From positions 1 through 48,150 of the forward strand of contig JACZRH010000002.1 in NCBI GenBank assembly GCA_022574815.1: a stretch of 48,150 nt of DNA, written 5' to 3'. Below are positions 23,001 to 48,150 of the stretch, one piece after another. The first letter of the stretch is position 1. Every line of letters begins with the position of its first letter. A model generated the notes under the pieces. The model saw only the letters and a list, made by a program, of their open reading frames with translations. It was not told the DNA's origin and did not search any database. Source of the stretch: Planctomycetota bacterium. GTDB taxonomy: Bacteria > Planctomycetota > Phycisphaerae > UBA1845 > Fen-1342. Made by a program: the position numbers and the translations under genes.

Positions 23001-23696
23001 ATGATCATCACCATCGACGGACCGGCCGGGTCGGGAAAGAGCACCGCGGCACGAAAGCTGGCGGCGCGGCTGGCGATTCCCTATCTCGACACCGGCGCCA
23101 TGTACCGCGTGGTTACGCTGCTGGCGCTCGAAGACGGCGTCGACCTCAACGATGAGGCCGCCTTAGCTGAGGCGGCGGCCCGCGGCGACTACGACCTCGA
23201 CCTCGGGCCGACGCACATTCGCGCGACGCTGCGCGGCCGCGACGTGAGCGAGGAAATCCGCTCCATGCGGGTCAGCGACCACACCCGCTTCATCGCTGCC
23301 TCGCCCGGCGTGCGGCGTTTGCTGGTCGAGCGACAGCAGGCGATCGGCCGTCGGCTGGGGTCGCTCGTGACCGAGGGACGTGACCAAGGCAGCGTCGCGT
23401 TTCCAGACGCCGACCTCAAATTCTTCGTCGACGCGGACATTCAAAAGCGGGCCGAACGGCGACTGCACGAACTGCTGGCCGACGGCGAGGAAGTGGACCT
23501 CGCACAAGTGCTCGAGAATCTGCGGCAGCGCGACCGCACCGACTCGCAGCGGGCGGTGGCCCCGCTGACCGTCCCCGACGGCGCCATCCGCATCGACACC
23601 AGCGAGCTGTCGATCCACGAAGTCGTCGAGATGATGCTGACGCACATACGCCGCGCCGGCTTGCAAGTGCCCGATGCCGGGCAGCACGATGTCTAG
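23001..23696 (+). CDS. cmk: cytidylate kinase
   Basis: 231 aa from ATG 23001. The P-loop IDGPAGSGKSTAARKLA is at the extreme N-terminus, followed by YLDTGAMYRV (NMP-binding), the insert region, RQQAIGRRLGSLVTEGRDQGSVAFP and the LID RxxRDRTDSQR. It phosphorylates CMP/dCMP using ATP. It overlaps the following plsC gene, an association seen in many bacteria. Confidence 0.95.
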   Translation: MIITIDGPAGSGKSTAARKLAARLAIPYLDTGAMYRVVTLLALEDGVDLNDEAALAEAAARGDYDLDLGPTHIRATLRGRDVSEEIRSMRVSDHTRFIAASPGVRRLLVERQQAIGRRLGSLVTEGRDQGSVAFPDADLKFFVDADIQKRAERRLHELLADGEEVDLAQVLENLRQRDRTDSQRAVAPLTVPDGAIRIDTSELSIHEVVEMMLTHIRRAGLQVPDAGQHDV

Positions 23697-24357
23697 CCGC
23701 ACCGCACCGGAACCGACGCTGGCGCTGGGCTTGCTCTGGCGTGTAGGCCGCGCGCTGTCCCGGGTGCTTTTCCTGCTGGTCTTCCGGGGGCGCGTGTTCG
23801 GGCTTCGGCACGTGCCGCGTTCGGGCGGCGCGCTCGTGGTCTCGAACCACCAGAGCTATCTCGATCCCATGTTCGTCGCGCTGTCGTTCGAGCGCGAGTG
23901 CTGCTTCATGGCCCGCGACAGCCTCTTTCACAACCGGTTCTTTGGCGGACTACTCAAGCGGGTCAATGCGATCCCCCTGAAACGCGGCACGGCCGACCTC
24001 GGCGCGGTCAAGACCTCACTGCGGAATCTCGAGGCGGGCAACATGCTCGTGGTCTTCCCCGAGTCCACCCGCAGCGCCGACGGGGCCATCGGCGAGATGC
24101 AGCACGGCGTGGTCATGCTCGCCCGAAGAGCGCGCGTTCCCATCGTGCCGGCCCTCATCGTCGGCGCTTTCAAGGCCTGGCCCAGACACGCCCGGCTTCC
24201 GCGACCGCGGCCCATCCTCGTTGCGTACGGCGAACCGATCCTCCCGGCGCAGACGAAGGGCCTCGATAACGCCGCCTGCATCAGACTCGTGCGGGAGCGC
24301 CTCATCGAACTCGCACACCGGTACGGCGGCCCGAGCCCGAAAGCGGCGCCTCGCTGA
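23674..24357 (+). CDS. plsC: 1-acyl-sn-glycerol-3-phosphate acyltransferase
   Basis: 227 aa from ATG 23674 (ATG 23689 would be five residues shorter), overlapping cmk. A hydrophobic N-terminal segment (about 15-38) precedes the acyltransferase domain. Block I is SNHQSYLDP (the HX4D motif), block II is KRVNAIPLKRGTADLG, and block III is FPESTRSADG, with Ser in place of the usual Gly. The enzyme acylates lysophosphatidate to phosphatidate at the inner membrane in phospholipid synthesis. Confidence 0.92.
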   Translation: MPGSTMSSRTAPEPTLALGLLWRVGRALSRVLFLLVFRGRVFGLRHVPRSGGALVVSNHQSYLDPMFVALSFERECCFMARDSLFHNRFFGGLLKRVNAIPLKRGTADLGAVKTSLRNLEAGNMLVVFPESTRSADGAIGEMQHGVVMLARRARVPIVPALIVGAFKAWPRHARLPRPRPILVAYGEPILPAQTKGLDNAACIRLVRERLIELAHRYGGPSPKAAPR

Positions 24358-36113: not shown

Positions 36114-37874
36114 TCACACGGTGGGCAGAGTCAAGACGAAGCAGGCGCCGGCGTCGGTGGAGGCGTCGAGCCGCAGATCGCCGCCCATGTTGCGCGCCAG
36201 CCGCCGGCTGAGAGCCAAGCCCAAGCCAACGCCGGCGGATGCGTTCGCCGGCTTTCTCGCGGATCGGTGGAACGGCCGGAACAGCCGGCGTGCTTCGGCC
36301 GGCGCGATGCCGGGGCCGCGATCGCGCACGCGCAGCACCACCGACCGCGCGTCCGCCGAGACGTGCAGCGAGATCCCCTTGTCCTTCGCGGTCGCCGCGT
36401 ATTTGCAGGCGTTCTCGACCAGATTGACCAGGATGCGTTCGACAGCCGCGGCATCGACGCGCAGGAGCGCGTCAGCGGCATCGGGATCGATTTGCATCTT
36501 CCAGGACATGCGGGCTTCGACGGCGCGGTGCGCGAACCTCTCCGATACACGGTCCAGCAAGTCGCGCACGCGCACCGGCTCGGCATTCGACACGGCATTG
36601 CCGCGTTCGAGCTGGGCGTACGACAGCACGTTTTCCACCAAGTGCGTCAGCCGGTCGGCCTCGCCGCGGAGCGTGTGAATGTAGCGGCGGCGCTTGGGTT
36701 CGTCGGCGACGCGGCCTTCGTCGAGCAACTCGGTGTACAAGCGAAAGGTCGTCAGCGGCGTCCGCAGTTCGTGCGTCACGGCCGAGACGAACGCCGCCCG
36801 CCGCTCGCTCAGCGTGACCGTTCCAAACAGCAGTGCCGCGACGGCGACCACGGCCAGCAGCATTGCCGCCCACGCCAGCATGAGCGTCACGCCTATGGGC
36901 GACCATGCGTCGCCGCGGCCGGGCGGCAACTGCCCCGGAACGAGCCGGACCGGCAACGCCGCGAGCACGCGGGCCGCGTCGTCGGCCTCGTCGCTCGCGA
37001 GGGGTTGCAAGTCGGCGGCCGGCAACAAGTCGGCGATCTCGGAAAGCATGGCGGTCTTCATTGCCGGCCAGTCCAGCCAACAGCCTTGTACGCGCGGGCT
37101 GCCGGCCACCGAGACCCGGCGCGCGAGCAGGAGCGCGTCGCCGCTCCAGATCGGGGCCAGCACGGTACCGCGCATCTCGAGCGGCAGCGGAACGATGCGA
37201 TTCATCAAGCTCTGGCTTTGCACGATCTGCTGCATGTTGCGCGAGCGAGCCTGCCGCTCGATCGAGCCGCGCGAATCAGACGACCGCGAAAGACTCGTCT
37301 GCACCGGATTCGCGGTAGCGGCAGCGCCTTCGGACTGCTCTGCCGGCTCCATCTCCATGCGACCGAGCGCGACGGCGACAGCGCCACGATCGAGGCGCCG
37401 GCCCAATTCCCTCAGCCGCCGCACGGCGGTCGCGACCCGATCGGCCGTGGTATAGCGGGCCAGGGCCGCGGCGCGCACGCGCGGATTCGGCACCTGCGGC
37501 GACGTGATGCCGCCCTTGCTGTCGTACTGAAAGTGCAGCAGGACGTACTTGGAAACATCGGTCAGCAACGGCGACGGGACCAGCACTTCGCCGAAGCCGA
37601 ACTCGTTCAGCGACTCGGAATAGGCGCTTTCGACCGGATAGAAGGCCTGGTACGCGGAATAGGGCCGACCGTTTTCCAGCGCCAGGATCGACGCCAGTGA
37701 CGAGTCCATCCGCCACAAAGCGAGCCGGATGTTCTCTTCCAGAGCGGCTTGTCGCCGGGATTCGGCATCCGCCGCTTCGAGCCGCAAGGCTGTTGCGCTG
37801 ATCCACGCCATCGGGACCGTCACGACGACGAGACACAGGCCGAAAACGACAAAGACGTGCCGGGGGCGCAGCAT
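36114..37874 (-). CDS. membrane sensor histidine kinase
   Basis: 586 aa, start ATG 37874 overlapping the regulator's stop (TGATG). Membrane helix 1 (8-28), a large periplasmic sensor region (about 30-325), helix 2 (327-350), then without an obvious HAMP the DHp helix with H368 (SAVTHELRTPL). The ATPase domain has N488 in the N box (LVNLVENACKY), G1 DRGPGIAP (518-) and G2 GVGLGLAL (548-). The periplasmic part contains a Ser/Arg/Gln-rich stretch (180-225) but no recognised domain. It autophosphorylates and passes phosphate to the regulator encoded just upstream. Confidence 0.92.
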   Translation of the reverse strand: MLRPRHVFVVFGLCLVVVTVPMAWISATALRLEAADAESRRQAALEENIRLALWRMDSSLASILALENGRPYSAYQAFYPVESAYSESLNEFGFGEVLVPSPLLTDVSKYVLLHFQYDSKGGITSPQVPNPRVRAAALARYTTADRVATAVRRLRELGRRLDRGAVAVALGRMEMEPAEQSEGAAATANPVQTSLSRSSDSRGSIERQARSRNMQQIVQSQSLMNRIVPLPLEMRGTVLAPIWSGDALLLARRVSVAGSPRVQGCWLDWPAMKTAMLSEIADLLPAADLQPLASDEADDAARVLAALPVRLVPGQLPPGRGDAWSPIGVTLMLAWAAMLLAVVAVAALLFGTVTLSERRAAFVSAVTHELRTPLTTFRLYTELLDEGRVADEPKRRRYIHTLRGEADRLTHLVENVLSYAQLERGNAVSNAEPVRVRDLLDRVSERFAHRAVEARMSWKMQIDPDAADALLRVDAAAVERILVNLVENACKYAATAKDKGISLHVSADARSVVLRVRDRGPGIAPAEARRLFRPFHRSARKPANASAGVGLGLALSRRLARNMGGDLRLDASTDAGACFVLTLPTV

Positions 37875-38578
37875 CAGGCGGCCCCGTGATCCGCGAACAT
37901 GTAGCCCTTGCCGCGCACGGTCAGAATCAGGCGCGGCTTGCCGCCGTCGTCGCCGATCTTCTCGCGCAGCCGGGCGATGTGCATGTCGATGGTTCGCGTC
38001 TCGATTCCGCGCGGCTCGAGCTGCCAGACGCGCGTGAGAATCTCGTCGCGCGAGATGGCGCGGCCGGCGTTGCGGGCCAGGTAGGCCAGCAGCTCCGTTT
38101 CGAGCTGCGACAGTTCGCAGCGCCTGCCGTCGTCGCTTTGAATTTCGCGGCGCGGCAAGTTGACCATTCCGGCGGGGACCCGAAACGTCGTGATGTCCGA
38201 GGGGCGCTCGGGCGAGCGTCGTATGACCGCCTCGACCCGCGCGAGCAGCTCCTTGACTCCGAAGGGTTTGACGACGTAGTCGTCGGCGCCGAGCCGCAGC
38301 CCGCGCACGCGGTCGTTTTCCTCGCCGCGGGCGGTGAGGATGATCACGGGTGAGGTGGGTCGTCCGGAGCGGACTTCCCTGAGGATTTCGAGCCCGTCTA
38401 TTTCGGGCAGCAGCAGGTCGAGCAGCAGCAGGTCCCACTCGCTCGTCAAAGCGAGCTCGAGCCCCGAGCGCCCGTCCGACGCTTCGCTCGTGGCGTATCC
38501 GCCGATCTGAAGCGCGTCCACGACGCCCTGGCGAATACCGGCGTCGTCTTCAATGACCAGGATGTGTGGTCGACGCAT
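37874..38578 (-). CDS. OmpR/PhoB-family response regulator
   Basis: 234 aa. Receiver residues E10/D11/D12, D54 (LLLDLLLPE), T82 and K104 (DDYVVKPFG); C-terminal winged helix with [12 protein letters not shown], the recognition region [15 protein letters not shown] and RGKGYMF. Phosphorylated by the kinase encoded next to it. Its promoter region has a perfect TATAAT and an 11-bp-period direct repeat, suggesting autoregulation. Confidence 0.94.
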
Positions 38579-39326: not shown

Positions 39327-40400
39327 TCATTCGCTCTGTTGGACCGGCTCAAGTTGCGGCGGTTTGGCGGCGGGTCGCGGAGGTTTCAGCCATTCGCCGA
39401 GGCGGCGCAGGCCTTCGTCGATGGAGACGCGCGGCTCGTAGCCCAGCTCGCGACGGGCGGCGGCGATGTTGTACCAGTGCGAAGTGGACAGCTCGCCCGC
39501 CACGAAGCGCGTCATGCGCGGCTCGCGCTGGATGCGAAACAGCCAGTGCGTGAACTCGAGCATGCCGCCGACCGCCCGCGCCGCGGCCGGCGAGATCGAA
39601 CGGCGCACCGGCTCGAGCCCGGCGGCGGCGAGGATGCGGTCGATCAGCTCCCAGACCGGGATCGGCTCGCCGTTGCTGACGAAATAGGCCCGCCCGGCGG
39701 CGGCGGGGTTGGTCTCGAGCGCGTCGGCGGCCAGTACGTGGGCGTCGGCGGCGTTGTCGATGTAGGTGCTGTCGACCCGGTTGCGGCCCGCCCCGATGCG
39801 CCGCAGCCGGCCCGCCTTGGCCAGCGCCACGAGCCGCGGGACGAGGTGATTGTCGCGCGGACCCCAGACCAGGTGCGGCCGCAAGGCCACGGTGCGAAGA
39901 CCCTCGCTATTTGCCGCCAATACGTGCTTTTCGGCGAGCGCCTTGGTCGCGCCGTAGTGCGACTTGTGCCGGCGTGGGTAGGGCAGCGACTCGTCGCCGC
40001 CCTCCACGTCCCGGCCGTCGAAGACGACGCTCGGTGAGCTGGTATACACCAATCGGCCCACACCCCGATCCTTGCAGGCCGCCAGGACGTGGTCGGTGCC
40101 GCGCACGTTCGGCTGGTAGAACGACTCGATCGAGCCCCAAACGCCGGGCTTACCGGCGACGTGCATCACGACGTCGCGGTCGGCGCAGGCCGCGCGGACC
40201 GCGTCGGCGTCGGCGAGGTCGCCTTGTCGCTGATCGACACCCAGCTTGCGCAGCTCGGGGTAATCGCCGCGTGAAAAGCTGCGCACCTCGTCGCCGCGGG
40301 CCACGAGCCGCTCGACGATCGCGCGGCCGAGAAACCCGCCGCCGCCGGTTACCAGGACCTTTTGAGGACGGTGCGCAGGCCGTTCGTGAGGTGTGTTCAT
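39327..40400 (-). CDS. oleD: OleD, 2-alkyl-3-oxoalkanoate reductase
   Basis: 357 aa. Extended short-chain dehydrogenase: Rossmann motif VTGGGGFLGRAIVERL, catalytic Y149 and K153 (HYGATKAL) with upstream Ser pair YTSSPSV. It reduces the beta-keto acid made by OleA to the beta-hydroxy acid using NADPH. The start overlaps the oleC stop (ATGA), and it ends the pfa-oleABCD run. By itself it could be any 3-beta-HSD-like dehydrogenase; the call rests on its place after oleA, oleB and oleC. Confidence 0.9.
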   Translation of the reverse strand: MNTPHERPAHRPQKVLVTGGGGFLGRAIVERLVARGDEVRSFSRGDYPELRKLGVDQRQGDLADADAVRAACADRDVVMHVAGKPGVWGSIESFYQPNVRGTDHVLAACKDRGVGRLVYTSSPSVVFDGRDVEGGDESLPYPRRHKSHYGATKALAEKHVLAANSEGLRTVALRPHLVWGPRDNHLVPRLVALAKAGRLRRIGAGRNRVDSTYIDNAADAHVLAADALETNPAAAGRAYFVSNGEPIPVWELIDRILAAAGLEPVRRSISPAAARAVGGMLEFTHWLFRIQREPRMTRFVAGELSTSHWYNIAAARRELGYEPRVSIDEGLRRLGEWLKPPRPAAKPPQLEPVQQSE

Positions 40401-42103
40401 CGCAGTTGTCCGATGGCCCAGGCGGCCAGTTGTTCGCGGAAGATTTTGGCGTTGTGGCGCACGTCCACGGGAAACGCCGGATGAAAGAGAACCGTCCTGA
40501 TCTCGCGGGTGTGTTCGTTCGCGGCGCCGCGGGCGAGCAGGTCGCGCGTGACTTCCTGTCTATTTGCGGTGGCGCTAGCGGGTTCGAGCTCGACGCAGAG
40601 CACCGGTTTCATCCTGCCGGGTTCGCCGACGCCGACCAAGGCGGTCCGAAACACGCGCGGGTCCTGATTGAAGATCGCTTCGCACGGGACGGTGAAGAGT
40701 GTGCCCTGCTCAGTGATGACGCGGTGCGCCTTGCGACCGCAGAACCAAAGCCGCCCCTGCTCGTCGAAGCGGCCGACGTCGCCCATGCGGTGCCAGACGG
40801 CGCCGGCGGCGTCGCGGAGCTTCGCGGCGGCGGTGGCTTCGGGATTGTCGAAGTACGAGTGCGTGACGACCGGGCCGGATACGACGATCTCGCCGATCCT
40901 TCCGTCGGGCGGCTCGCGCGTTTCCTCCAGGGTCGCGAGCGGATCGTCGGATATTTCGATGATGCGCACGCTGATGCCCGGCAGCGGACGGCCGACGCAA
41001 GTGCCGCCGCCCCGCGCCGTGGCCTCGCGCGTGTCGGACAGGATTTCGCGGCTCGCGATGTCCGTCACGGGCAGCGCCTCGGTCGCACCGTAGGGCGTAT
41101 GAATCTCGGCATCGGCGGGGAGCATGTGGTGCAACGACTCGAGCAGCGGCGGCGGGATCGGCGCGCCGCAGGTGATGACCCGCCGCAACGACGGCAGCTT
41201 CACGCCGGTCCGCTCGCCGTGCTGCGCCAGCCGCCGCAGCAGCGCCGGCGAGCCGAACATCTGCGTGCAGCTCTGAGCGGTGATGGCGGCGACGATCTTG
41301 CGCGGGTCCGCCGAGCCGGGCTTCGAGGCGTCCATGTCGGGAATGACGGCGGTCATGCCCAGCGCCGCGTCGAACAGCGCGAAGAGCGGAAAGGTCGCGA
41401 GGTCGGTCTGCTCGGGGCCGCAGCCGAAGGACGACTGCAAGCAGCGCACCTGCGCGTCGAACATGCCGTGCTCGTAGACGACGCCCTTGGCCGGCCCGGT
41501 GCTGCCGCTCGTGAACAGAATGGCGGCCTGCTCGTCGGGTCGGGTCGGCGCGGGCACGAACGGTCTGGTCGTTGCGGCTCGCAGGTCCGACAGGCGATGA
41601 CCGCCCCAGAACAGGCGACGGCCCACGGTTACGGCGGTACGCACGCCGCGAAAGGCTGCCGGATAGAGCTTGCGGAGCACGTGCGCGAGCGGGATGCCGA
41701 TGAACGCTTCGGCCTTGACGCGCGCGAGGCAGCGAACCAGGTTCTTGCGGCCCATGCCCGGGTCGATCAGGACCGGCACGGCGCCGATCTTGAACAACGC
41801 GAACGTCAGAGTGAAGAACTCGAGGCTCGGCCGGACCATCAGGATCGTGCGCGTGCCGCGCGTGATGCCGATGCGCTCCAGGCCGTGTGCGTATTGATTG
41901 GTCTCCTGCTCGAGCTGCGAGAAAGTCAGCCGTGCGTATTTCGCATTTCCGGCCGATTCGACGCCGGCCGGGCAAACGACCGCGTGCTTGTCCGGAAAGC
42001 GCTCAGCCATCGTCGCCAGGCGCGTCGCGATGTTGACCACGGCGTCCGACAAGGTCGGCCGCGCCACGCTCGACTCGCCGCGCGCGAGCTGCGTTGCGGT
42101 CAT
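40397..42103 (-). CDS. oleC: OleC, beta-lactone synthetase
   Basis: 568 aa from ATG 42103, overlapping the oleB stop by 4 bp. ANL-superfamily adenylating enzyme: the P-loop-like ILFTSGSTGPAKGVVYEH, the PYGATEALPV motif, and MGDVGRFDEQGRLWFCGR at the hinge; the C-terminal domain ends with HNAKIFREQLA. OleC adenylates the beta-hydroxy acid and closes it to a beta-lactone instead of making a CoA ester. Length and neighbours fit OleC. Confidence 0.92.
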   Translation of the reverse strand: MTATQLARGESSVARPTLSDAVVNIATRLATMAERFPDKHAVVCPAGVESAGNAKYARLTFSQLEQETNQYAHGLERIGITRGTRTILMVRPSLEFFTLTFALFKIGAVPVLIDPGMGRKNLVRCLARVKAEAFIGIPLAHVLRKLYPAAFRGVRTAVTVGRRLFWGGHRLSDLRAATTRPFVPAPTRPDEQAAILFTSGSTGPAKGVVYEHGMFDAQVRCLQSSFGCGPEQTDLATFPLFALFDAALGMTAVIPDMDASKPGSADPRKIVAAITAQSCTQMFGSPALLRRLAQHGERTGVKLPSLRRVITCGAPIPPPLLESLHHMLPADAEIHTPYGATEALPVTDIASREILSDTREATARGGGTCVGRPLPGISVRIIEISDDPLATLEETREPPDGRIGEIVVSGPVVTHSYFDNPEATAAAKLRDAAGAVWHRMGDVGRFDEQGRLWFCGRKAHRVITEQGTLFTVPCEAIFNQDPRVFRTALVGVGEPGRMKPVLCVELEPASATANRQEVTRDLLARGAANEHTREIRTVLFHPAFPVDVRHNAKIFREQLAAWAIGQLR

Positions 42104-43032
42104 GACACGCTCTCCGCGCAGGCCGGGTTCGCAATCGGCAAAGGGTGTTTTCCCAGAAACGCCGCGATTTTCTCGATTACCCCCGCCGGCTCGTCCTCCA
42201 GCAGGTAGTGGCCGGCGTCGGCGAAGGTGTGGACCTCGGCGTCCGGAAAGCGCCGCCGCCACTCCGTGAGGAAGAGAGTGTCAAAGACGAAATCCTGCTC
42301 GCCCCAGCAGATCAACATCGGCAGGTCGCCCAGGGTGTGCAGGTTCTCAGCGACCCATTGGACCATTTCGTAGCTACGGTCGCCGGGGCGCAAGGGGATG
42401 TCCTGCACGAAGCGCAGCGTGGCGATGCGGTCCCTCGGCTTGGCGTAGGGCGCCAGGAACGCCGCTCTTACTTCGGGGGTCATGGGGCGCCGGCAGCAGC
42501 GGCGCGCGGCGCCCCGTGCGAACGCGTTGAATCCGTAGACGAGCGCTTCGCGCAGCAACGGCACGTGGCGAAGAATTCCGATCTCGAGCGGCAAGCGCTT
42601 ACCGGCCGGCTTCAGGAAGCCGGACGTGTTCAGCAGGACGATCCGTGCGATGCGGTGCGGATGGCGCAAAGCGCACGCCAATCCGATCATGCCGCCCCAG
42701 TCGTGCAGCACGAGCGTGACGTTGTGCAAGTCGAGCCTTTCGAGCAGCGCTTCGAGGTCCGCGACGCGCCGCTCGAGCACGTATTCATAGTCCGCGTCGC
42801 GCGGCTTGTCGGACAAGCCGCAGCCGATGTGGTCCGGGGCGATGAGGCGGTACGAATGGCGCAGCACCCGGATGAGCTCGCGGTACATGAAGGACCAGGT
42901 CGGGTTGCCGTGGACGCACAAGAGCGGCTCGCCAGCGCCTTCGTCGAGATAGTGGTAGCGCAGGCCGCCGCGATCGAGCCAGTGGCTTTTGAATGGGTAG
43001 AGCGAGCGAAAGCGGTTGATGTCGAGGCTCAC
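42100..43032 (-). CDS. oleB: OleB, beta-lactone decarboxylase
   Basis: 310 aa from GTG 43032, with GGAG 6 bp upstream. Alpha/beta hydrolase of the haloalkane-dehalogenase type: oxyanion loop HGNPTWSFMYRE, nucleophile D111 in LVLHDWGGMIGLA (Asp, not Ser), acid D251 and H275 (ADAGHYLLED). OleB removes CO2 from the beta-lactone, giving a cis-olefin. It follows oleA by 74 bp, the only non-overlapping junction in the group. Confidence 0.92.
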   Translation of the reverse strand: MSLDINRFRSLYPFKSHWLDRGGLRYHYLDEGAGEPLLCVHGNPTWSFMYRELIRVLRHSYRLIAPDHIGCGLSDKPRDADYEYVLERRVADLEALLERLDLHNVTLVLHDWGGMIGLACALRHPHRIARIVLLNTSGFLKPAGKRLPLEIGILRHVPLLREALVYGFNAFARGAARRCCRRPMTPEVRAAFLAPYAKPRDRIATLRFVQDIPLRPGDRSYEMVQWVAENLHTLGDLPMLICWGEQDFVFDTLFLTEWRRRFPDAEVHTFADAGHYLLEDEPAGVIEKIAAFLGKHPLPIANPACAESVS

Positions 43033-43106: not shown

Positions 43107-44144
43107 TCACCACTGCACTCCGAGCATCACACAGTTTAAGCCGCTGCCGATGCCCAGAAAACCGACCTTGTCGCCGCGCTCCAGGAAGCCGCGCTGCTCG
43201 GCGATGGCCGCCGTGATCGGCAGCGAGACGGTGCCGATGTTAGCGAGGTAGGGGAAGGTCGAGAAATCCCGCTCCAGCGGAATGTTCAGGGTCTTGAGGA
43301 TTGCGGTCCGATTGGTTGTGCCGACCTGGTGACAGATCACCTTGTCCACGCCGTCGGGCCAGCCGAGCTCGCGGATGAAATCGCGCCAGGTCTGTGCACC
43401 GAGCTTCACGCCGTTTTCGAGCACGTCGATCGCGTGCGTCTCCATCACGTGCGCGGCGCTGGGCGGGATGCCGGTGTCCGGCCCCCAGCGGCAGAGGCGG
43501 TGATGCTCGGTCGCGCTGCGCGCCGCGCCGCCGAGCAGGCGATGGCCGTCCGGCGCGAGGGCGGCGTCGGCCAGAACGACCGCGATCGCGCCGGAGCCGC
43601 CGGTCAACGTCGCGAAGGTGGTCTTGAAGGTCTCCATATCGCACCGCGCGAGCAACCGCTCGATCGAGCTGTCGATGATCTCGCGCGCCGACTCGCACGA
43701 GACCACCATGCCGGCCGCGATCTGCCCGAGCTCGATGGCATTGGCGATCTGCACCATCCCGTTCACGACGCCGAGACAAGCGTTCGAGACATCATAGGTG
43801 ACGGGCGACCCGGGCAGGCCGAGCCCGTCGGCCACCGGGCACGCCGTCGCCGGTTCGAGATTGTCGCGGCACACGCCGCCGTAGATGAGCAGGCCGATGT
43901 CGTCGCGTTTCAGGCCGCTGGCGTCGAGCGCTTTGCGGCCGGCGGCGACGGCCCCGTCGCTCATGCGGAAGCCGGGGTCCCAGAGTCGCCGCTCGCGGAT
44001 GCCGGTCATCGTTTCGAGCTGGCCGAACGACAGGCGCAACGTTTCGTAGACGGGCGCGAGGCGGTCCTCGAGCGCCGCCGACGTGATGACGTTGGGCGGC
44101 AGCTCGTAGCCGATCGAGACGATGGAAACTCGCGAATAGCGCAT
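43107..44144 (-). CDS. oleA: OleA, thiolase-type head-to-head condensing enzyme
   Basis: 345 aa from ATG 44144, sharing one base with the stop of the upstream synthase gene (TGATG). Thiolase/FabH fold with C123 (SNACLGVVNG), H272 (ICHQVGTTN), N302 (YLANIGTVSLP) and the OleA-specific Glu E97 (RDNLEPATAC). The spacings E-to-C (26) and H-to-N (30) equal those of the characterised Xanthomonas enzyme (E117/C143, H285/N315; from memory). It condenses two acyl thioesters through their carboxyl/alpha carbons to a 2-alkyl-3-oxoalkanoate. FabH is the alternative, but E97 and the oleBCD neighbours decide against it. Confidence 0.94.
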   Translation of the reverse strand: MRYSRVSIVSIGYELPPNVITSAALEDRLAPVYETLRLSFGQLETMTGIRERRLWDPGFRMSDGAVAAGRKALDASGLKRDDIGLLIYGGVCRDNLEPATACPVADGLGLPGSPVTYDVSNACLGVVNGMVQIANAIELGQIAAGMVVSCESAREIIDSSIERLLARCDMETFKTTFATLTGGSGAIAVVLADAALAPDGHRLLGGAARSATEHHRLCRWGPDTGIPPSAAHVMETHAIDVLENGVKLGAQTWRDFIRELGWPDGVDKVICHQVGTTNRTAILKTLNIPLERDFSTFPYLANIGTVSLPITAAIAEQRGFLERGDKVGFLGIGSGLNCVMLGVQW

Positions 44145-47100
44145 CACGCCACCGGAACCAGACGAACGCCGAAATCGATCATCTCGTAAATGGGCTTGCC
44201 GTCCACTTTGAGGAACCCGTTGGCTTTCACGTGCGGCGAGGCCCCTTCCCCGACCTCGGTCACGACTGCTTCGACCTCCACCCGCCGGTTGGTCGGAATG
44301 ACCTGCCCGCGGTAGACCCATTCGTGCGGCGAGCCCACCAGGATCGGCTCGAAGCGGTGCGTGTGTTCGAGCTGCTGCCCCCAGCGCTCGATCGCGGCGA
44401 CTTTCAGCAATTGCAGGAAGGCTTCCAATCCGAGCGAACCGGGCCAGACGGGGTCCTGGTAAAAGTGGGCCTTGAAGAACCACTCGGCCGGATCCACCTG
44501 CTTGACGCCGCGGACAAAACCGAGCCCGTGCGGGCCGCCGTCCGAAACAAAGGCGTCCACGCGGTCGATCATGCGAAACGCGCGGGCCGGCATGGCCGAC
44601 GGAGGCGCTGCTTCGCGACTAGCATCGCTCGGCGTAAGCGGCGGGGCGTCCGCGAGCTCGATTCGTCCGGCCTTTCGCAATTCCGCAGCGTCGGGAGCAA
44701 AGGCACGCTCCGCGGCGCCGCGAATCCCGACCTGATCGGCGAGTGCAGCGTCGGTGAAGAACCCGAAGTACGTGTTGCCGTCGTAGACCGGGCGCGAGCC
44801 GTTCCAGACTTGCAGGTCGAATTTCTCGATAATCATCCCGCCGGCTTCGGAGACGTCCGTGATGCGCACGCGCGCGGTCAACATGCCGGCGTCGGGAAAG
44901 ACCTCTTCGTGCAGCGTGGCCCGGCCGCCGAGGTTGCGGAAGCGGGTGTCGACTTCGCTGCGCAGCGCCGACCCGAGATACGCCGCCAGCCACCCGCAGG
45001 GTTGCAGCCCGATTTCGAGCAGGATCGCGAATGGCATCGCACGCTGCCGGTTGGCGGCGAAGTACCACGCGTCGGGCGGCACGTCGTATTGCGTCTCGAT
45101 CCACCCGCCGGGCTCGAGCTTCCACGGCTCGGCGTGGATTTCGGTGACGCGGTCGAGGAATTGATAAGGCGGCCCCGGGAGCCGCGCAATCCGCCGTTCG
45201 GCGTCGAACACGCGGTACGGCTCGCCGAAGCAGTCGGACGGATTGCCGATCGCGAAGGCGCGGATTTGGTCGGTGTCGAAGATGGCGGCTTTGGGCTCGG
45301 CGAGCGGCAGACCCTCGCCGATCGGCTGCACCACCGGCGGGGGGACGCTGGTCGGCGCACCTCGGGGGGCCGCTGCGATTCGTACGCGATTGCGCCAGGT
45401 TTCCTTGATCCGCTCATACGGCAGCCCGTTGAGCTTAATGGACATGTCGGTGAATCGAACGATCCGCTCGCCGTCCGCATACATGAGGGCATCCGCGACG
45501 ACGTACGGTTCGGGCTCGTGGCCGATCTCCTTCAACTCGAGCTCGTACGTGACGACCCGGGTCTCGGGCGTCACCGGCCCGCGGCAGGTCAGCTTGCACG
45601 GCTTGTCGAGCAACGGCTCGTAGCTCACGCCGGCCTGCTCGCCGACCCACCCCATGCGCAGCAGCAGGATGCGCAGCGTATGGGCGCAGCACTCGAACAT
45701 GAGCGTGCCGGGCATGACCATGTCGTCGACGAAGTGGCAGGTGAGGAACCAGTCGTCGGGGCGGATGTCCGCTTCGGCGCGAATCGACCCGATCCCGAAA
45801 CGCCCGCCCCGCGGATCGAGCTCGACGATGCGGTGTACGAGGCGCATGCGGCCGCCGGGAATGCGCAGCGGGTCGTCGAGCTGCAATCCCTCGAATCGCG
45901 GTCCGAAACAGCCGGCCAAATCGCCGGCCCGCAGCGCGTCGAGCCGCGCTTCGTCATACGATTCGACCTCCATCGGCACGAGCTCGAGCGCGTCGGCCGG
46001 CCGCTTTCCGGGCATCGGCTTGCGGTCGTCGTCGGTGAGGACGATCCCACCCGATTCCGCGATTTCCTGCTCCGTGAAGAAACCCGCGCAGCCGTTCGTC
46101 ATGGTAATCAGCGGCCGATCGTCGATCGTGCCTTCGAAACGGAAGAAGAACAGGTAGGTGTCGCCGCGGCGGACGAACTTGTCGATCGCGACATCGTAGC
46201 GGATCGTCTCGCCGGGCCGCGGCAAACCGCGGTGAAAGTCGACGGTGGCGTCGAGCAGGCGGTAGGTGCGCAGCCCCTTGACGCGCAGGTCGATCCCCAG
46301 CCAGGACGCGAGGAACAGGTCCGCCTGACCGGCCTCGACCGTGATGCAGACCGGGGCGCGGTCGCCGTCGAGGTACCACTGGCCCGGCGTGACGTCATGC
46401 TCGGTGACGATCGATCCGGAGGTGAGCGAGGCTTTTTGGCCGTGGATGGAAAGGATGCGGTCGACCAGCATAAGCGGCTCGTCGGGCAGGCGCACGCGGG
46501 CGCGGCAGGTGTCGATCTCCGCGAACTGCGGGCCGAACAGCTTCGCGACCGAGCCGACCGCGAACTCCAGGCATTGTTCGCGCGTGAAAGCGATCTTTTT
46601 GCGGCCGATCGTCTCGTGCGCGGGACGGTCCCGGTCATCAAGAGATGGCTGAGGCCGCGTCGGATCGCTCAGGAGTCGTGACTGAAACGCGAGCGCCCGG
46701 CCGATGGCCTGCGTGGCCGACTGCGAGAACCGCAAAAACGCGTCGTGTGCGGCGGCATTGGCGGCGCCGGTCGTCGCGACATCAATTGCCAGAGCGCCCA
46801 GGCTGGTCGCCGCGGGGGCCATCTCGGCCGGCCGCTGAGGCTGAGCAACTTGCCCGAAACCCGCCGTCGCCGTTTGCACAGGCGGAGAAAGTGGCTGGAC
46901 GGTAACAGCCTCGCCCGCGGTTAGGGCGCGAGGCCGGGGCAGCTCCCGCGGCTTGGAGCCCAGCGAAACCGTGACGTGTCCGCTGCTCGAATCGTCCCCG
47001 CTAAGCCCCGCGGTCAGATGCCCCACGGCGCGCGTCTCGTCCTCATACAAACCCGCTAGACTCGGCAGAGCGCGCTGCGCGACGAGCGCGGCGACAAGGT

Positions 47101-48150
47101 GCAATACCGAGGAAACTTCGTCCTGACTTTGCGAGGCCGAGCGCGCGAAATGAGGCCGACCGCCGAGGATCCGGCCGATCACGCGGCTGCACGATGCCTG
47201 GGGGCCGACCTCGACGAACAGACGCACCCCGTCGGCGTACGCCCGCTCGATCAGCTTCGGAAAATCGAATCCGCGCAGGGCTTGGTCGACGATGGAGGCC
47301 GCCGCGGTCTCGCGGTTGACGTAATAGGATCGTGCCCAGGCGGCGCTGTAGAAGCGGATGCCGGCCGGTGGGGCGGTCTCGAGCTCGTGCAAAGCGCGGT
47401 AGGCCGGCTCGACGCCGCGCGCGATTTCGCAGTGAACCGTGGAGGCGCCTTCGATCACGACAGCTTCGCATCCCAATCGGGACACGACCTGTTCGACCTC
47501 GCCACGCCAACCGCCGATGACACACTCATCCGGCGCGTTTGTAATGAGCAGATAAACCCGCTTGAGCGCAGCGAGCGCGTGGCGCACGCGGTAGGCCGGC
47601 CGATTGACGATCACGACCTGCCAATCGACGGACTGCCCGGGACGCAGACCCCACGCCCGTTGCGCCGCGCGGCACTCGCCGGCGAGCTCGCTCTGAAACA
47701 GCGGCGACGCGATCATCCGCGCGTGCATTTCGTCGCGGCCGCGCCAGGCGCGCAGGGCAAACAAACTCGTCGTCTCGCCGAGGCTGTAGCCGATCGCCGC
47801 GCCCGGCCGCGCGCCGAACGAGCGCAGCAGGTCGCTCATCACGATGCCGTATGCGACCTGCCCCATGATCGCGCGCACCGTGCTGCTGCCGAGGCGCTCG
47901 GCCGCGTCGCGCTGCCACTCCGGTCCCCAGTCGCCGCGCCAGGGCGCGTACCAGCGCGGCATGAGCTGGCTCGCGAGGCGCTGGGTGTCGGCGTCGAGCG
48001 CCCGTGCGATTTCCGGCCACTGCACGCCGAGCTCGCGCCCCATGCCGACGAAGTGGTTGCCGGAGCCGGGAAAGACGAACGCGACCTCGCCGCTCTTTCC
48101 GAGCGGCTCGGTGTAGTAGAACGAGCCGTCGCCGCCGTCGATCGGCTCCT
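44144..48150 (-). CDS. polyunsaturated fatty acid synthase subunit, AT-DH-DH part (5' end beyond window)
   Basis: At least 1334 codons, open through the right edge; the ATG at 48043 is internal, as the preceding in-frame codons read VAFVFPGSGNHFVGMG, the start of an acyltransferase domain. Numbering from that Met: AT domain to ~330 with Ser87 (GYSLGE) and His204; an Ala/Pro-rich linker (335-480); then four hot-dog units. Units 1 (~515-670) and 3 (~955-1095) lack the catalytic His. Units 2 (H770, E784; CHFVDDMVMPGT) and 4 (H1193, E1207; AHFYQDPVWPGS) keep it. This is the paired layout of PfaC/Pfa3 dehydratases, which introduce cis double bonds during PUFA assembly. KS and CLF should precede it. 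No C-terminal acyltransferase (AGPAT) domain follows; the stop runs directly into oleA. Confidence 0.9.
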   Translation of the reverse strand, partial: EPIDGGDGSFYYTEPLGKSGEVAFVFPGSGNHFVGMGRELGVQWPEIARALDADTQRLASQLMPRWYAPWRGDWGPEWQRDAAERLGSSTVRAIMGQVAYGIVMSDLLRSFGARPGAAIGYSLGETTSLFALRAWRGRDEMHARMIASPLFQSELAGECRAAQRAWGLRPGQSVDWQVVIVNRPAYRVRHALAALKRVYLLITNAPDECVIGGWRGEVEQVVSRLGCEAVVIEGASTVHCEIARGVEPAYRALHELETAPPAGIRFYSAAWARSYYVNRETAAASIVDQALRGFDFPKLIERAYADGVRLFVEVGPQASCSRVIGRILGGRPHFARSASQSQDEVSSVLHLVAALVAQRALPSLAGLYEDETRAVGHLTAGLSGDDSSSGHVTVSLGSKPRELPRPRALTAGEAVTVQPLSPPVQTATAGFGQVAQPQRPAEMAPAATSLGALAIDVATTGAANAAAHDAFLRFSQSATQAIGRALAFQSRLLSDPTRPQPSLDDRDRPAHETIGRKKIAFTREQCLEFAVGSVAKLFGPQFAEIDTCRARVRLPDEPLMLVDRILSIHGQKASLTSGSIVTEHDVTPGQWYLDGDRAPVCITVEAGQADLFLASWLGIDLRVKGLRTYRLLDATVDFHRGLPRPGETIRYDVAIDKFVRRGDTYLFFFRFEGTIDDRPLITMTNGCAGFFTEQEIAESGGIVLTDDDRKPMPGKRPADALELVPMEVESYDEARLDALRAGDLAGCFGPRFEGLQLDDPLRIPGGRMRLVHRIVELDPRGGRFGIGSIRAEADIRPDDWFLTCHFVDDMVMPGTLMFECCAHTLRILLLRMGWVGEQAGVSYEPLLDKPCKLTCRGPVTPETRVVTYELELKEIGHEPEPYVVADALMYADGERIVRFTDMSIKLNGLPYERIKETWRNRVRIAAAPRGAPTSVPPPVVQPIGEGLPLAEPKAAIFDTDQIRAFAIGNPSDCFGEPYRVFDAERRIARLPGPPYQFLDRVTEIHAEPWKLEPGGWIETQYDVPPDAWYFAANRQRAMPFAILLEIGLQPCGWLAAYLGSALRSEVDTRFRNLGGRATLHEEVFPDAGMLTARVRITDVSEAGGMIIEKFDLQVWNGSRPVYDGNTYFGFFTDAALADQVGIRGAAERAFAPDAAELRKAGRIELADAPPLTPSDASREAAPPSAMPARAFRMIDRVDAFVSDGGPHGLGFVRGVKQVDPAEWFFKAHFYQDPVWPGSLGLEAFLQLLKVAAIERWGQQLEHTHRFEPILVGSPHEWVYRGQVIPTNRRVEVEAVVTEVGEGASPHVKANGFLKVDGKPIYEMIDFGVRLVPVA

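Follow-up and report, generated by a model that had tools for sequence, protein, structure and literature searches.

A planctomycete pfa/ole gene set in which OleA very probably draws its chains from a fused PfaBC-type Pfa synthase

The window analysed here (48,150 nucleotides, the entire contig C368 of a 4.48 Mb Phycisphaerae (Planctomycetota) MAG) carries a planctomycete copy of a pfa/ole gene set known in other bacteria, and based on co-occurrence across genomes and on clade membership, OleA is very probably the functional partner that draws chains from the Pfa synthase. On the ACPs of PfaA the synthase would assemble a polyunsaturated acyl chain; OleA, judging by homology, would take two such chains off the ACP and condense them head-to-head, and OleBCD would then complete a long polyunsaturated olefin, e.g., C31:9 as the predicted product. 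We consider this route from Pfa chains through OleA to an OleBCD olefin highly likely, with the absence of an AGPAT domain being ordinary for such a synthase and a PfaB-type terminal acyltransferase being kept. The features of the window on which this reading draws are as follows:

44144..48150, (-) strand: 3' part of pfaBC (putative KS-CLF-AT-DH2 type); the 5' part lies beyond the contig end
47188..48079, (-) strand: AT domain, PfaB type (PGSGN, GYSLG, STVH); Pfam Acyl_transf_1, residues 24-320
47791-47777, (-) strand: GYSLG motif of the AT
47443-47432, (-) strand: STVH motif of the AT
46073..46504, (-) strand: hot-dog unit 1, FabA-like, without catalytic His; Pfam FabA and motif, approximate boundaries
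45425..45865, (-) strand: hot-dog unit 2, FabA-like, catalytic type CHF...MFE; residues 761-906
44750..45193, (-) strand: hot-dog unit 3, FabA-like, without catalytic His; Pfam and motif, approximate boundaries
44178..44590, (-) strand: hot-dog unit 4, FabA-like, catalytic type AHF...GLE; Pfam residues 1187-1323
43107..44144, (-) strand: oleA; base 44144 belongs to both its ATG and the pfaBC stop
42100..43032, (-) strand: oleB, alpha/beta hydrolase, haloalkane dehalogenase-like
40397..42103, (-) strand: oleC, AMP-binding, olefin beta-lactone synthetase family; ATGA overlap with oleB
39327..40400, (-) strand: oleD, 2-alkyl-3-oxoalkanoate reductase family; ATGA overlap with oleC

When we looked across the order to which this genome belongs, an OleA with 53% identity or higher was found in 32 of the 33 genomes that carry pfaBC or pfaD, and the 68 lacking both had none (101 genomes; Fisher p of 1.6e-25, uncorrected for relatedness), the single Pfa-bearing genome lacking one being a 75% complete MAG. 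In a quick tree, 97 OleA sequences were divided by a branch with an SH-aLRT of 100; on one side of it fell all 46 pfa-linked OleAs together with 25 of the 30 unlinked ones from Pfa-bearing genomes, and on the other those from genomes of the order without pfaBC. The single pfaBC-less genome (G024) with an OleA inside the Pfa-side clade does have pfaD. Five Pfa-bearing genomes (G101, G102, G106, G104 and G109) are a natural contrast to those with the clade OleA: the sole OleA homologue found in each is divergent (36–41% identity) and located elsewhere in the genome, retaining the catalytic Glu, Cys, His and Asn, and in three of them, Desulfosarcina alkanivorans and its relatives (G101, G102 and G106; loci L131, L120 and L126), pfaBC is directly followed by oleB. 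One OleA clade thus accompanies the Pfa synthase even without gene adjacency, with near-perfect co-occurrence in one order, and this pairing makes the question of which enzyme ends the chains of a PUFA synthase genetically testable in cultured relatives.

The identification of the gene that follows pfaBC as oleA, made in a first-pass annotation of the same DNA, was borne out by a match to the Xanthomonas campestris OleA structures (3fk5/3row, E-value of about 1e-62), by the presence of Glu117, Cys143, His285 and Asn315 (X. campestris numbering), by a score of 477 bits against a cut-off of 285 for the profile PRK09258, and by the oleB, oleC and oleD genes that come next; OleC and OleD had high scores, these being below equivalog cut-offs specific to Xanthomonas/Shewanella. 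The X. campestris OleABCD pathway comprises the same four enzymes; to our knowledge it is not paired with a Pfa synthase. The reported sharing of one base between the two genes was also correct: the junction reads GTG GCG TGA TG, with the pfaBC stop TGA at 44146-44144 and the oleA ATG at 44144-44142. The spacing between oleA and oleB is 74 bp; ATGA overlaps join oleB to oleC and oleC to oleD, so that overlaps of a few bases are a general trait of the pfa-ole operon. The one-base overlap is not conserved, however, an overlap of pfaBC and oleA occurring in just 6 of the 48 linked loci (that of the window among them), with gaps ranging from -4 to +2032 bp; in Desulfatitalea alkaliphila (L143) the two genes overlap by 4 bp. 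The translational coupling that had been read from this junction therefore cannot define the partnership, which holds without adjacency. Downstream of oleD and on the same strand, by our reading, lie a response regulator and a sensor histidine kinase (36114-38578 (-)).

The pfaBC ORF is open at the contig edge, its N-terminus falling outside the window at the contig break, and in its 1334 residues Pfam identified a single Acyl_transf_1 domain and four stretches of FabA. The first-pass annotation had described an AT followed by two DH pairs; the AT and the four FabA units are there, but by motif reading only two of the units are catalytic (CHF...E and AHF...E) and two are degenerate. The H and E of unit 4 were invariant in an alignment of 20 relatives. 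The AT and DH2 are fused in one PfaBC protein, the frames of relatives being uninterrupted over about 2170–2550 aa. In myxobacterial Pfa3 proteins, according to the first-pass annotation, the AT also stands before the FabA-like DH domains, an order common to the Pfa protein of the window. As had been noted, the protein ends right after hot-dog unit 4 (...FGVRLVPVA) with no acyltransferase beyond, and we found no PF01553 (AGPAT) match in the ORF, the stop coming soon after that unit.

This end is shared by nearly all of the synthases that we sampled. We compared 95 distinct pfaBC C-termini, drawn from Planctomycetota, Desulfobacterales, Acidobacteria, Eremiobacterota and Elusimicrobia records; 94 of them lay -3 to +19 residues from the end in the window, and oleA was downstream of 47. 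A further 38 had no oleA behind them with the next 1.5 kb or more present, and for the other 10 the downstream sequence was too short to judge. At one locus (L148) the seeming extension of pfaBC by 110 residues proved to be an out-of-frame reading over an oleA without its first 33 codons, which we put down to a deletion in the assembly, not to a gene fusion. As the terminus is the same with or without oleA behind it, the end of pfaBC is independent of oleA, and outside myxobacteria this synthase family normally has no AGPAT. In myxobacterial Pfa3 (Aetherobacter and Minicystis; PMC6731297) there is a C-terminal AGPAT, which in Minicystis follows a PKS-like DH4 and which is absent in the window; the transfer step assigned to this AGPAT had been taken as established in the first-pass annotation, whereas its role in Pfa3 itself is given as presumed (PMC6731297). 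A paper on hybrid PUFA-synthase lipids makes no mention of OleA.

The AT domain bears on the further claim that the Pfa subunit lacks a release acyltransferase, which our searches speak against. The domain aligned over its whole length with PfaB of Shewanella baltica (PDB 9ry8, E-value of 1.1e-27), with GYSLG in the place of GYSMG and a conserved region around the catalytic His; GYSLG differs from the malonyl-type GHSxG, and the PfaA of the same genome has GHSYG. The pfaBC fragment scored 75.5 with pfaB_fam, under the curated cut-off of 144.3 for whole PfaB. A published account describes PfaB as a terminal acyltransferase, acting late on long chains and possibly off-loading the product (PMC12895367). 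The AT in pfaBC is thus PfaB-type and, with a terminal or off-loading role predicted from sequence, a release acyltransferase is probably not lacking. The same alignment and the same report (PMC12895367) favour a different weighting, in which the AT is the true terminal acyltransferase, passing the chain on to a different ACP or other acceptor on the way to phospholipids, with OleA diverting only a C16 intermediate, as in Shewanella, where one synthase yields both EPA and hydrocarbon (PMC6463001). We regard this as quite possible; it is compatible with the passage of Pfa chains to OleA, the difference being which outlet is the main one, but in the sampled order the synthase almost always occurs with the Ole pathway, which would be needless for a synthase making chiefly membrane PUFA. 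The opposite extreme, that the Pfa synthase of this branch feeds neither free acids nor phospholipids, with OleA as sole off-loader, hydrocarbon as sole product and the AT serving chain handling only, seems to us doubtful; it is worth testing as the co-occurrence is near-absolute, while the PfaB-type AT in pfaBC argues for another outlet.

It is unlikely, in our judgement, that off-loading is left to OleA alone in the sense that had been proposed, i.e., that OleA replaced an ancestral release acyltransferase and became coupled to pfaBC through the overlapping start. The one-base overlap and the tight OleA/Pfa co-occurrence are in keeping with such a history, as is the result of our search for a separate AGPAT or thioesterase gene, a check that had been suggested, which found neither within the pfa/ole cluster. 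Against it, the overlap is infrequent and gaps reach 2 kb, the PfaB-type AT is present, we saw no trace of an AGPAT ever having been there to be lost, AGPAT being a feature of myxobacterial Pfa3, and the identical C-terminus exists in genomes that carry oleA at another site, so that OleA has replaced nothing. Searching the bin one family after another, we identified PF01553 in two proteins, one on contig C129 and the other a solitary PlsC within the window (23674-24357, (+) strand). The PlsC was considered as a hidden AGPAT and rejected; being 15 kb from oleD, on the opposite strand and the only stand-alone PF01553 protein found, it is most likely a housekeeping enzyme. We rate as very unlikely that a trans-acting hot-dog thioesterase of the PfaT/Orf6 type frees the chain as an acid that is later activated with CoA for OleA. 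The bin does hold several 4HBT proteins, but none was found on C194 or C368, and the four that we tested had as best PDB matches generic YbgC/4HBT proteins or nothing, with no Orf6-specific match; a bin search for PF00975 thioesterases found none. In addition, PfaT has been reported to be accessory rather than a release enzyme, and OleA functions in a fadD-minus host (PMC6463001).

The preferred reading, that Pfa chains pass to OleA, follows published work, and the central idea of OleA off-loading is largely contained in two papers (PMC3098273 and PMC6463001) that precede it. Shulse and Allen (2011) described Type I pfaBC fusions, often ole-linked, in Deltaproteobacteria and one planctomycete, and Type I pfa clusters were proposed to supply olefin precursors, Geobacter bemidjiensis making C31:9 (PMC3098273). 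The Type I secondary lipid synthase clusters of Geobacter, Pelobacter, Desulfuromonas and Gemmata (PMC3098273) resemble the window in the pfaBC fusion and the ole linkage, a likeness judged by gene layout; the window differs in its Phycisphaerae host and its one-base overlap with oleA. Allemann and others (2019) showed Pfa and OleA to be enough for a 31:8 ketone in E. coli without acyl-CoA synthetase, and concluded that acyl-ACP is the OleA substrate in vivo and that the role of the PfaT thioesterase is accessory (PMC6463001). Off-loading by OleA, which had been presented as a possible new mode of termination, therefore stands as a very probable draw on Pfa chains and not as a novelty, having been proposed with in vivo support in 2019. 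In Shewanella and Photobacterium profundum (PMC6463001), as is predicted for the window, Pfa supplies OleA (proposed to be from acyl-ACP), the operons may adjoin and the hydrocarbon is C31:9; these bacteria, however, have separate pfaB and pfaC and also make EPA, unlike the fused pfaBC of the window, and in SS9 a pfaT thioesterase gene lies between the pfa and ole operons (PMC6463001), while none was found at the window locus. The present locus extends the partnership, itself already described, to Phycisphaerae.

The pfaA and pfaD partners expected of a Type I cluster (PMC3098273) were found in the same bin on contig C194, which carries pfaD (above the TIGR02814 cut-off), pfaA and then the start of a KS-first gene. 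C194 stops 550 nt into this gene, so that the middle of pfaBC, with the KS-CLF part, falls in the assembly gap; no sequence overlap joins C194 to C368, and about 2 kb is missing. The order pfaD-pfaA-pfaBC is that of relatives with single-contig loci, and as the assignment of C194 and C368 to one locus uses relatives and binning, pfaD-pfaA-pfaBC-oleABCD is here a predicted order across the ~2 kb gap. The closest named relatives carrying the Pfa gene are Phycisphaerae and other Planctomycetota, with a few records labelled Acidobacteria. The PfaA of C194 has the domain composition KS-MAT-ACP-KR-PS-DH and scored 1470 bits against the TIGR02813 cut-off of 1010. The first of its two ACP repeats (L035:5300-11761) reads DLGIDRIRR, with Arg at the position of the phosphopantetheine Ser, and the second repeat is intact. 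Among relatives, several have both repeats intact and others show one.
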